Source of the DNA: Halobacteriales archaeon YIM A00010
GTDB taxonomy: Archaea > Halobacteriota > Halobacteria > Halobacteriales > Haloarculaceae
Direction of reading: 5' to 3'
NCBI GenBank assembly: GCA_025041175.1
Contig: JAKCFJ010000002.1
Coordinates: forward strand, 372,001 to 436,000
Length of the DNA stretch: 64,000 bases
The position numbers and the translations under genes are program-made. Within the stretch, counting starts at the first letter, position 1, and each line of letters starts with the position of its first letter. Positions 40,471-46,386 of the stretch are shown piece by piece. Below the pieces are notes generated by a model, which saw only the letters and a program-made list of their open reading frames with translations, was not told the DNA's origin and searched no databases.

Positions 40471-41883
40471 TCACTCCAACACTGCCGCGCGGAGATCGTA
40501 ATCGGTGAAGTACTCGCGTTCGGTCTCGACCAGCTGGGCGAACAGTTCGCGCGCGTCCTCTCGGGGGATGGTCACGAGCGGGTCGTTGAGAAAGGCCTCG
40601 AACGCGAGGTCGAGATCACCCTCGAACCCGGCCTCGATGAGCGTTTCCTGGTTGGTGACGTGACGCTCGACCATGCTCCGGATCTGGGGGGAGAGGCCGC
40701 CGGCACACAGGGGCGTGACGCCTTTGCCGGTGAGCAAGGCGTTGGTCTCGACGACAGCGCCCGTCGGTAGGTCGGGGATCTGTCCCTCGTTCGGGTGGTT
40801 GAGGTGGGTTTTGAACGGTTCGATACCGACCAGCGCGCGCATAATCTCGACGGCTTCCTCCCACGAATCGTCGAACTCGAACTCCTCGTCGCCGGCGAGA
40901 TACTGCTCCATCTTGTCGGGGCCTTCCTCACCGACGCGGGCAGAGCTGGGGGTGAGGCGGATGCCCCACCGCTGGATCTCCTCGGGTTCGTCGATGGCGA
41001 GATACCACGGGACGAACTCCGCGAGGTGTCGGTCGCCAGCCGCGCCCAACACCCCGAACCGGTCGTACAGATCGAACGCGATCTGAAAGTTGTTGACCCA
41101 GTAGGATTCGTCCGCCATGTCGCCGGGTTCGTAGCCCGGCAGTGGCCGACGGCGTTCGAGTTCGGCGTCGAGATACTGGTAGAGATCGTGGTCGCGCCAG
41201 TAGGCCGAATCGATCCACGTGAAGTGGTTGATCCCTTTGACAGTAATATCGATCTCCTCGCGGCCCACGTCCCCGGCCGCCACGTGGCGCTCGGCGATCT
41301 CCGCAAACAGGTCCTGGAAGGGATGCACTTCGTGACAGAGGCCGATGGCGTTAATCTCCGGGTACGCCTCATAAAGCGCGCGGGTGCAGACCGTCATCGG
41401 GTTGGTGTAGTTGATCACCCACGCGTCGGGGCACTCCCTGCGGACCGTGGCGGCGATTTCGCGGTACTGGGGGATCGCCCGGAGTGCCCGGATCGTGCCA
41501 CCGGGTCCGACCGTGTCGCCCACCGTTTGGTAGAGTCCGTACTCCCGTGGAACGTCGAGATCGTGTTTGAACGTCTCCTCGGGGGGATCCTGGATCGAAC
41601 AGATCACGAAATCCACGCCGGAAAGCGCGGCGTCCATCTCCCGGTAGGCCTCGAATCGCCAGTTTCCGACCGCGTCGTCGCGGTCCATCACTCGGTTGCC
41701 GAACTCGGCGTTGCGCGCGGCGGCTGCGTGGTCGACGTCGTAGAGGGCCACTTCTCCACCGAGATCCGGACACTGTCCGAGGTCGTTGATGAGGGTGTGC
41801 GCCCACCCCTGGCTGCCACCACCGACGTAGCCGATCTTCAGCTCCGAAGCCACTGCTCCGTCTCTGCGTCCTAGCTCGTGCAT
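40471..41883 (-). CDS. GH4 NAD- and metal-dependent glycosidase, candidate alpha-galacturonidase
   Basis: 470 residues. N-terminal Rossmann GYVGGGSQGWA binds NAD, NYTNPM (N161) contacts substrate, and GLCHEV (C183) plus GINHFTW supply the metal ligands, as in family 4, which works through an oxidation-elimination mechanism. The family includes alpha-glucosidases, alpha-galactosidases and alpha-galacturonidases; the last fits the rhamnogalacturonan neighbours (Bacillus rhamnogalacturonan clusters also contain a GH4 galacturonidase). ATG 41883 suits the TATA box at about 41909-41914. Divergent from the hydrolase at 41963. Confidence 0.9.
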   Translation of the reverse strand: MHELGRRDGAVASELKIGYVGGGSQGWAHTLINDLGQCPDLGGEVALYDVDHAAAARNAEFGNRVMDRDDAVGNWRFEAYREMDAALSGVDFVICSIQDPPEETFKHDLDVPREYGLYQTVGDTVGPGGTIRALRAIPQYREIAATVRRECPDAWVINYTNPMTVCTRALYEAYPEINAIGLCHEVHPFQDLFAEIAERHVAAGDVGREEIDITVKGINHFTWIDSAYWRDHDLYQYLDAELERRRPLPGYEPGDMADESYWVNNFQIAFDLYDRFGVLGAAGDRHLAEFVPWYLAIDEPEEIQRWGIRLTPSSARVGEEGPDKMEQYLAGDEEFEFDDSWEEAVEIMRALVGIEPFKTHLNHPNEGQIPDLPTGAVVETNALLTGKGVTPLCAGGLSPQIRSMVERHVTNQETLIEAGFEGDLDLAFEAFLNDPLVTIPREDARELFAQLVETEREYFTDYDLRAAVLE

Positions 41884-41962
41884 GCACACGTGGTTCGAAC
41901 CCGGAGCGATATAGCTGTTGGCACTCGACAGCTATACGGTCGCTCCGCCGTAGCTACCGGGC
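41884..41962. promoter_or_regulatory. Symmetric divergent promoter with nested inverted repeats
   Basis: Arms TATAGCTGT (41910-41918) and ACAGCTATA (41928-41936) are perfect inverted repeats nine bases apart, each containing the TATA box of one of the two divergent genes. GGAGCG (41903-41908) and CGCTCC (about 41941-41946) extend the symmetry outwards. Both predicted transcripts begin within a few bases of their ATG. Confidence 0.7.
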
Positions 41963-42988
41963 ATGGATGACGTGTTCGATCCCGAGGGGTTCCAGCGTCG
42001 GTTGTACTGTGAAACGATTCGCAAACACGAGTACGACTCCCAGACTGGGACGGCGTTCGCCGACTGGCAGGACGCTGCTCGTGAGGATCTCCGGACAGTG
42101 CTCGGGCACCACGTGATTCGAGAACACCCTGGCGGTGCGAGGCCACGACGATCGGAGACGGTGACGTACGACGGATACGAGCGCCAGACGTGGCGCCTCC
42201 GGACCGAACGAGGCGTTCCAGTCCCGTTTTACGTGCTGGTCCCCACGGATTCGGACCCACCCTATCCCGTCGTGTTCACGATCCACGGTCACAACGACAC
42301 CGGTAAGGAACTCGTCGCGGGCACCGCCCACACCGAGGACCAACACGAAGCGATCCACGAACAGCGCCGCGACACGGCCATCCAGGCGGTGCATCGGGGG
42401 TACGCGGCGATCGCCCCGGACATGCGGGGATTCGGGGCGCTCGCGGATTCGAATTCGAATGGGGGGCGGGCGTGTACGCACATGCAGAAAACGGCCCAGC
42501 TGTACGGCCGGTCGCTCCTCGGAGAACGGGTTTGGGACGTGTTACAGCTGGTAGACTTCGCCGAGCGTCGGTCGATCCTCGACGCCTCCCGGATCGGGAT
42601 AACGGGCCATTCCAGTGGCGGAGCAGTCGCCTTGTTCGCGGCCGCGCTCGACGAGCGGTTTGGGGTCGTGGCTCCGAACGCCTATTTCTGTGCGCTCGGT
42701 GATTCCATCGTTCCGATCGACCATTGTGTGTGTAACCACGTTCCGGGCCTGCTTCGGCTCGGGGAGCTGTGGGACATCGCCGGTCTCATCGCCCCCCGAT
42801 CGATCGCCGTCGCCACCGGCGAGCACGACCGGATCGTTCCCGTCGAAGGAACGCGTCGTGCGTTCGAGAACCTCCAAGAGATATACGCGGCAGTCAGTTC
42901 CCAGGACCGGTGTGAACTGTACGTCGGCTGTGACGGCCACCGATTTTACCCCGACGGCGTCTGGCCGTTCGTTCGCGACCATCTGTGA
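41963..42988 (+). CDS. Alpha/beta hydrolase (acetyl-esterase or dienelactone-hydrolase like)
   Basis: 341 residues. VVFTIHGH oxyanion strand, nucleophile elbow GHSSGG, a late acid in GEHDRIVP and histidine in DGHRFYP. A long N-terminal segment and the DMRGFG motif resemble abhydrolase_7/acetyl xylan esterase-type enzymes used on plant polysaccharides. No signal peptide. Shares a symmetric promoter with the GH4 gene, so it may deacetylate the same oligosaccharides before they are hydrolysed. Confidence 0.82.
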   Translation: MDDVFDPEGFQRRLYCETIRKHEYDSQTGTAFADWQDAAREDLRTVLGHHVIREHPGGARPRRSETVTYDGYERQTWRLRTERGVPVPFYVLVPTDSDPPYPVVFTIHGHNDTGKELVAGTAHTEDQHEAIHEQRRDTAIQAVHRGYAAIAPDMRGFGALADSNSNGGRACTHMQKTAQLYGRSLLGERVWDVLQLVDFAERRSILDASRIGITGHSSGGAVALFAAALDERFGVVAPNAYFCALGDSIVPIDHCVCNHVPGLLRLGELWDIAGLIAPRSIAVATGEHDRIVPVEGTRRAFENLQEIYAAVSSQDRCELYVGCDGHRFYPDGVWPFVRDHL

Positions 42989-43050: not shown

Positions 43051-43689
43051 TCAGGCGGTTCCGGCCCAGCGGATTCCCCGGACGAGCAGCGACCGGACGC
43101 CGTCGTTGGCGAGAGCGGGCGTTCCGTGGCCGAGCGAACAGTAAAACACCCGTCCGTCGCCGTACGGCTTCGCCCACGCGACCGGCATATCGCCGTTTTC
43201 GGGGTGATCCATTCTGGCGAGGACCTGCACGTCGTCGTGATCGACAGCGTACGGTTCGTCCCAAACGGTAAACCCCTCGAGTCCCCCTGACACCGGGTGG
43301 TGGCTGTCGACGATGTTCACGTCGAACGTTCCCGGCTCGGGGTGGGAGAGGAAGTGGCCGCCCAACAGCGCCCGGAGTTCGGGCACCGGTTCCTCGCGCG
43401 TCCCATCGACGACGGTCGTGAGGTCGGCGGCGCAGTGAATGCCCGCGTAGCCGCCGCCGCTTTCGACGAACGAGAGCAGCCCCGTTCGTTGGTCGTCGGT
43501 GAGCGTGCTGTCGGTCGTGTAATCGATCAGAACGTCGGTGGTCAGGTCGCACAACGCGTCCCGGTCGGTCGTCAGCTCGACAGAGATTCCCTCGGCGTCG
43601 ATCGCCTGGCGAAGCGACGAACCGATCCGTTCGAGCCGGTGAAAGGGAAAGCGGTTCCCGCCGATCACGACCGTCTGTATGTCTGGCAT
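43051..43689 (-). CDS. ThuA-like (glutamine amidotransferase-fold) protein
   Basis: 212 residues matching the trehalose-utilisation ThuA family: VLIDYTT strand, FVESGGGYAGIHCAADL, LLGGHFLSHPEPG, and GDGRVFYCSLGHG near the end. These proteins adopt a class I amidotransferase fold and frequently occur in carbohydrate clusters, with roles described in disaccharide metabolism; the activity here is unknown. Start MPDIQTVVIGG at 43689 is chosen over an upstream start. Convergent with the hydrolase at 41963. Confidence 0.85.
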   Translation of the reverse strand: MPDIQTVVIGGNRFPFHRLERIGSSLRQAIDAEGISVELTTDRDALCDLTTDVLIDYTTDSTLTDDQRTGLLSFVESGGGYAGIHCAADLTTVVDGTREEPVPELRALLGGHFLSHPEPGTFDVNIVDSHHPVSGGLEGFTVWDEPYAVDHDDVQVLARMDHPENGDMPVAWAKPYGDGRVFYCSLGHGTPALANDGVRSLLVRGIRWAGTA

Positions 43690-43713
43690 GCGTTTCGGAT
43701 CACCGCACCGCAC

Positions 43714-45460: not shown

Positions 45461-46228
45461 TCAGTGGAACGTCAGATCGACCTCGATCGCGTTGGCGGCC
45501 GACAACAGGCGGTTCGGGAGTTCCCGCTCGTGCCAGTCGCCTTCGAGGCGCATCGCCGGGCCGGAGAGCGAGATCGCACCGCGTACGTTATCGCCGTTCA
45601 GGATCGGAACGCCGATCGCCGTTACGCCCGTCCGGTACTCCTCCCGGTTGAAGAAATACCCCCGCTCGCGCCCCTCACGAAGCTCCTCGTAGAGGCTATC
45701 GCGGTCAGTGATCGTGTTTTCCGTGAACCGCTTTAGCCCCCACTGACCGATGATCTCCTCGACGCGGTGCTGGGACAGGTGTGCGAGAATCGCCTTGCCG
45801 GACGACGAACAGTGCATGTAAGAGTGCGTTCCCACCCTGATGTCCGTTTGGACCGACCGGCTCCCCGCAGCCACACAGAGGGCCGTCGCAAGCCCGTGCT
45901 GTTCGACCATACAGAACACACGCTCACCGGTCTCTTCGGCCAGCTCCTTGACGGTAGGCTGGGCGACCTCGTACAGCGGTTGTGATCTCTTTACGTACGC
46001 ACCGAAGTTCACGAACCGAAGCCCGAGTTCGTATTGGTCCGCCTCGGAGACGACGAAACCGTTTTGGGCCAGCGTCGAAAGATGTGCGTGCGCCGTGCTT
46101 TTGGACATATCCAGATGATCGGCCAGTTCAGTGACCCCCGCCCCATCGAGCTGCCACAGCGCTTCGATGATCGTGAGCGTTTTTTCGACCGAGGTGAGCG
46201 TTTTCGGCGCGTCGTCGGTGGTTCCCAT
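45461..46228 (-). CDS. IclR-family transcriptional regulator
   Basis: 255 residues. Winged HTH with GVTELADHLDMSKSTAHAHLSTL, then the effector domain (CSSSGKAILAHLSQH, TAIGVPIL, GAISLSGPAMR). ATG 46228 is preferred to an earlier start since a CTTATTG box lies about 28 bases upstream. Divergent from the acyl-CoA ligase gene, so it probably regulates the fatty-acid genes, possibly via the palindrome at 46367-46386. Confidence 0.9.
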   Translation of the reverse strand: MGTTDDAPKTLTSVEKTLTIIEALWQLDGAGVTELADHLDMSKSTAHAHLSTLAQNGFVVSEADQYELGLRFVNFGAYVKRSQPLYEVAQPTVKELAEETGERVFCMVEQHGLATALCVAAGSRSVQTDIRVGTHSYMHCSSSGKAILAHLSQHRVEEIIGQWGLKRFTENTITDRDSLYEELREGRERGYFFNREEYRTGVTAIGVPILNGDNVRGAISLSGPAMRLEGDWHERELPNRLLSAANAIEVDLTFH

Positions 46229-46366
46229 GTGCAGTCCCTCGTCCTGATCCACAATAAGTCTGTTCGACACTGTCGAACGAAACCGGTCGTAGCGGTGGGG
46301 TCGTCGGTGGCGGGCCGTCCAGTCGCCTGTGCGTTACTGATCGATAGCCAAAGGCTTTTGAGATCC

Positions 46367-46386
46367 CACAGTTCATGATAACTGTG
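46367..46386. promoter_or_regulatory. Palindrome CACAGTT-N6-AACTGTG before the acyl-CoA ligase gene
   Basis: Perfect 7-base arms around CATGAT, ending seven bases before ATG 46394 and overlapping the expected transcription start. A protein bound here should block transcription, so this is a repressor operator candidate for the divergent IclR gene product. Confidence 0.6.

Follow-up and report, generated by a model that had tools for sequence, protein, structure and literature searches.

Two divergent genes in the window (the whole 64,000-nucleotide stretch of haloarchaeal DNA analyzed here), one for a GH4 glycosidase and one for an alpha/beta hydrolase, are separated by DNA in which a TATA-like sequence facing one gene recurs as its mirror image facing the other. 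Does this symmetry mark the binding site of a regulator that controls both genes, or two promoters standing back to back? The initial annotation described near-mirror promoters inside perfect inverted repeats and placed a single regulator at their center.

Gene cluster, start codons, and layout of the inverted repeat

The two genes belong to a haloarchaeal rhamnogalacturonan/sugar locus that encodes a family 11 rhamnogalacturonan lyase, a Gfo/Idh/MocA oxidoreductase, the GH4 protein, the alpha/beta hydrolase, a ThuA-domain protein, a LipP1-type lipase, and an IclR-family regulator. The next gene is ACS, whose product we take to resemble an acyl-CoA synthetase. Coordinates are collected in Table 1. 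The match of the GH4 protein to the alpha-galactosidase subfamily scores under its cutoff. Because many related GH4 proteins share the N-terminus MHxL, ATG 41883 is preferred over GTG 41889 as the GH4 start. The hydrolase frame opens with ATGGAC, as it also does in three relatives from another genus (L003, L005, and L010). The start codons are 80 nt apart when counted from ATG 41883; the earlier estimate that the transcripts begin roughly 75 bases apart fits the distance from GTG 41889 to ATG 41963, but not that from the better-supported GH4 start. Such spacing is ordinary in this genome, where 13 of 158 gaps separating divergent genes measure 60-100 nt.

Table 1. Genes and sequence elements at the GH4/hydrolase locus, numbered by position in the window.
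Feature	Position	Strand	Remarks
GH4 glycosidase gene	40471-41883	-	Start ATG 41883, from N-terminus comparison; Pfam PF02056 and PF11975, NCBIfam
Outer left arm, CGGAGCGA	41902-41909	none	8 of 8 bases complementary to 41940-41947
16-nt GH4 promoter block, GTGCCAACAGCTATAT (putative BRE/TATA)	41909-41924	-	Identical in three Halocatena-group genomes
Inner left arm, TATAGCTGT	41910-41918	-	Putative GH4 BRE/TATA, -35 to -27 of ATG 41883; 9 of 9 bases complementary to 41928-41936
Center, 9 nt	41919-41927	none	Non-palindromic
Inner right arm, ACAGCTATA	41928-41936	+	Putative hydrolase BRE/TATA, -35 to -27 of ATG 41963
CGG bulge	41937-41939	none	Breaks the register of inner and outer arms
Outer right arm, TCGCTCCG	41940-41947	none	Exact complement of the outer left arm
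Alpha/beta hydrolase gene (Abhydrolase_7 / AXE1-like)	41963-42988	+	Start ATG 41963
ThuA-domain gene	43051-43713	-	
IclR-family regulator gene	45461-46270		
IclR/ACS palindrome, CACAGTTCATGATAACTGTG	46367-46386		CACAGTT-N6-AACTGTG; perfect 7-nt inverted repeat with a 6-nt center

Between 41902 and 41947 the sequence reads CGGAGCGA-TATAGCTGT-9 nt-ACAGCTATA-CGG-TCGCTCCG. The outer arm adjoins the inner arm on the left, and CGG stands between them on the right, which offsets the register by 3 nt. The perfection that had been claimed therefore holds for the inner arms and for the outer arms taken separately, but CGG breaks their continuity, which makes the whole a quasi-palindrome bearing a 3-nt bulge rather than a single continuous perfect repeat. 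Folded as single-stranded DNA, it reaches -17.7 kcal/mol, compared with a mean of -8.0 for shuffled sequences (z = -4.8).

The inner arm by itself is unremarkable and common by chance. Perfect 9-nt repeats with a 3-12-nt spacer occur five times in the window, against a mean of 5.0 in 40 first-order Markov sequences, and 176 times in a 1.08-Mb sample of the same genome. The inner and outer arms combined are rare. With outer arms counted if they are at least 7 nt long and within 4 nt of the inner arms, the combination occurs once in the window, at one of the 176 inner repeats in the genome sample, and nowhere in 2.56 Mb of first-order Markov sequence. The single case in the genome sample is a perfect palindrome, 50 nt or longer, centered on GGAATTCC (L045:6757). 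The exact motif had no match in 100 shuffles, and a search of the 5.97-Mb genome with up to 3 mismatches returned the palindrome at this single place.

No second copy of the 73-nt intergenic gap was found in the genome, where the remaining matches span 14-21 nt with E values of 0.38 or worse. The outer arms at their 30-nt spacing have no further exact copy there either, other places carrying 2 mismatches. A mobile element or repeat family was rejected on these grounds. An RNA element was likewise rejected, as no Rfam match was found between 36000 and 48000 and the repeat would be untranscribed if both mRNAs are leaderless.

Register and likeness of the two arms

Both inner arms lie at exactly -35 to -27 from the start codons of the genes they face. 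The genome-wide signal comes from the upstream regions, 50 nt or longer, of 570 ATG genes that a home-made ORF scorer called in 1.13 Mb of this genome. In these regions, the frequency of A rises to 0.34-0.38 at -35 to -33, and A+T reaches 0.59-0.64 at -29 to -26. The arms thus occupy the genome's BRE/TATA positions, and the simplest reading is that they serve two leaderless genes as core promoters; in such genes, a BRE/TATA is expected approximately 27-35 nt before the start codon. This placement supports the near-mirror divergent promoters of the initial annotation. In a position matrix built from the 570 regions, GH4 and hydrolase included, the GH4 promoter falls at percentile 72 and the hydrolase promoter at percentile 56; among 5000 random places, 2.3% score as high as the former and 6.2% as high as the latter. 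When read on the + strand, the left arm scores 2.21, with an implied start at 41944, and the right arm scores 1.69.

Leaderless transcripts make up 72% of the protein-coding transcripts of Haloferax volcanii (PMC4983044). The leaderless promoters described for that species resemble the arms in position and makeup, whereas their proposed motifs are CGAAA and TTWT and the core here is ACAGCTATA (PMC4983044). The present locus also differs from the usual haloarchaeal leaderless core promoter in having two identical cores with 9 nt between them.

A run of at least 9 identical bases in register is found in 36 of 162,165 pairs of upstream regions (2.2e-4, present pair included). Of the 61 divergent pairs whose gaps measure 40-250 nt, the GH4/hydrolase pair shares 9 nt in register, and the runner-up shares 5. 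This likeness exceeds usual chance, though it was picked after the fact. Just two of the 570 genes have the exact ACAGCTATA ahead of them, in both cases at -35, and these fit GH4 and the hydrolase. Cores reading CAGCTAT are also found upstream of ThuA in two relatives (G042 and G043) and upstream of more distant GH4 genes (L031 and L062).

We consider it quite likely that the region consists of two outward haloarchaeal core promoters back to back, with each gene served by its near arm. Each 9-nt arm, reading ACAGCTATA toward the nearer gene, would be that gene's BRE/TATA. TBP and TFB would bind the near arm, and RNA polymerase would start at the start codon or no more than a few bases from it, producing a leaderless mRNA. 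With TATA centers approximately 23 bp apart and BREs facing inward, each initiation complex would probably compete with or constrain the other. The symmetry can be explained without a dedicated regulator. Counting against this reading, the left arm on the + strand outscores the right arm in the matrix, so that the hydrolase could use the far arm, the 9-nt in-register identity is unexpected for two unrelated promoters at the frequency given above, and core promoters leave the outer arms unaccounted for.

Conservation among relatives

The 16-nt GH4 block is identical in all three genomes that have this gene cluster, and the opposite, mirror arm is missing in two of them, G042 and G043; only the GH4 side is conserved. 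When up to 3 mismatches to the inner palindrome were allowed, a search across the seven genomes of the genus came up empty in both G042 and G043; outside the window genome, only G040 and G041 gave hits, a single one in each, with 3 mismatches. The outer left arm is not conserved, as the two relatives read TTTCTTTG or TCTCTCTG toward GH4. Upstream of GH4 in G043 (L149:7477-7618), GGTACCAAC is followed by GGTGCCAAC, their starts 13 nt apart, the two forming a near-repeat that adjoins the BRE.

The gene order from the lyase to ACS is kept in the two closest relatives, G042 and G043, but the hydrolase is not between ThuA and GH4. Instead, ThuA lies directly upstream of GH4 in the same direction, 142 and 147 nt away. 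Among the genomes compared, only the window genome has the hydrolase at this place. Both relatives carry a related hydrolase elsewhere (57-59% identical). In a tree of nine hydrolases, one of them from a locus cut at a contig end that was left out of the upstream comparison (L009), the window copy falls outside those of its genus's other four hydrolase-bearing genomes, on a long branch whose placement is rated unsure. A survey of 146 genomes of the family found 9 with the hydrolase (E up to 1e-30) and 24 with GH4 (E up to 1e-60); where both share a contig outside the window genome, they are more than 10 kb apart by listed positions. A genome-contig scan with the hydrolase as query found no relative, and the scan with GH4 gave 80 loci. 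Twelve of these (L061-L072) were compared by blast and by their upstream regions, and the other 68, from bacteria and more distant archaea, were left out.

With ThuA next to GH4 in both relatives that have the cluster, the hydrolase was probably inserted at this place, or else lost in both of them. The mirror arm appears to be lineage-specific, along with the gene that it would serve. The ends of the insertion cannot be placed because the flanking stretches do not align significantly. For the stretch upstream of the GH4 block, 34 of 300 shuffles aligned as well as G043 and 249 of 300 as well as G042; for the 68-nt stretch on the ThuA side, 162 of 300 and 108 of 300 shuffles aligned as well as the two relatives.

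The same comparisons bear on whether the inverted repeat is an operator. A dimeric regulator, for example the IclR-family protein encoded at 45461-46270, could bind the repeat, overlap both TATA boxes, and control the two genes jointly. The rarity of the combined arms, the position of GH4/hydrolase as the most alike of the 61 divergent pairs, and the IclR-family gene in the same conserved cluster favor such an arrangement. However, an operator should keep both half-sites where its target gene and regulator are kept, and the mirror arm is missing in both relatives that retain the GH4 block, the IclR gene, and the remaining cluster. Further copies would be expected at other regulon genes, and the 5.97-Mb genome holds none at up to 3 mismatches, which is a weak point because single-copy local operators exist. 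A single regulator bound at the center and controlling both genes equally, as initially proposed, is not supported, for these reasons and because the central 9 nt are non-palindromic. Relatives without a hydrolase at the locus cannot show the absence of a hydrolase-side operator, and the repeat may be a young operator specific to this lineage. On balance, joint control through the repeat is unlikely.

Another palindrome in the cluster provides a standard for this judgment. CACAGTTCATGATAACTGTG lies between IclR and ACS, just ahead of the ACS start and 4.4 kb from the mirror arms, from which it differs in sequence and layout. It is identical and single-copy in the three of seven genus genomes that have the cluster and absent from the other four, and its position and conservation mark it as a good candidate for the operator of the IclR protein. 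Since it is conserved in all three cluster genomes, it behaves as an operator should and serves as a positive control for the mirror arms, and its constancy argues further against an operator role for them. A literature search on haloarchaeal IclR palindromes found nothing relevant.

The symmetry could also reflect how the hydrolase promoter arose. We think it very improbable that the newly arrived hydrolase took its promoter from the neighboring core promoter through inverted copying, in which case the quasi-palindrome would be the trace of a divergent promoter being born within one Halocatena lineage. In the form of local inverted duplication considered here, likewise very improbable, a template switch after the hydrolase's arrival between ThuA and GH4 would have copied the GH4 promoter, supplying the newcomer with one and leaving the quasi-palindrome. 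Such an event would fit a hydrolase that is found here only in the window genome and is not close to those of the two relatives, the adjacency of ThuA and GH4 in those relatives, and an arm identical in both sequence and register. However, just 17 bases pair, with a 3-nt offset and little likeness beyond them, the GH4-side outer arm is itself unconserved, and convergence on a common core would yield the inner arm without copying. Also very improbable is that each gene, or the hydrolase only, takes the far arm as its TATA, giving overlapping promoters and short leaders: the left arm does score 2.21 on the + strand and would leave the hydrolase a leader of approximately 19 nt, but in the case of GH4 only the near arm is conserved, and the near arms match the genome-wide register.

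Relation to known promoter systems

Read as two outward core promoters, the locus holds a divergent pair that is real and neatly symmetric but largely ordinary in kind. Back-to-back archaeal TATA/BRE elements are easily mistaken for a regulator palindrome, and comparison of relatives tells them apart. If the mirror arm was indeed copied from its neighbor, the locus would be a compact example of promoter gain by a newly placed gene.

The gvpA-gvpD region of Halobacterium likewise has two outward BRE/TATA promoters within one short gap (PMC4390858). There, the starts are 108 bp apart and the TATA-BRE elements 35 bp apart, compared with 9 nt between the arms here, and overlapping sites for the activator GvpE lie between the elements, whereas the present locus has no room for two 20-nt sites (PMC4390858). 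Activator sites beside each BRE that overlap centrally were not found in the 9-nt non-palindromic center.

Bidirectional symmetric promoters were reportedly described by Warman and others in 2021. They share with the present locus divergent transcription, proposed here, from symmetric DNA. In E. coli, bidirectional promoters use one shared element on both strands (PMC12825309). In contrast, the haloarchaeal locus has two separate TATA-like arms, and 80 nt separate its start codons. The near arms fit best, but the + strand reading of the left arm scores as well.
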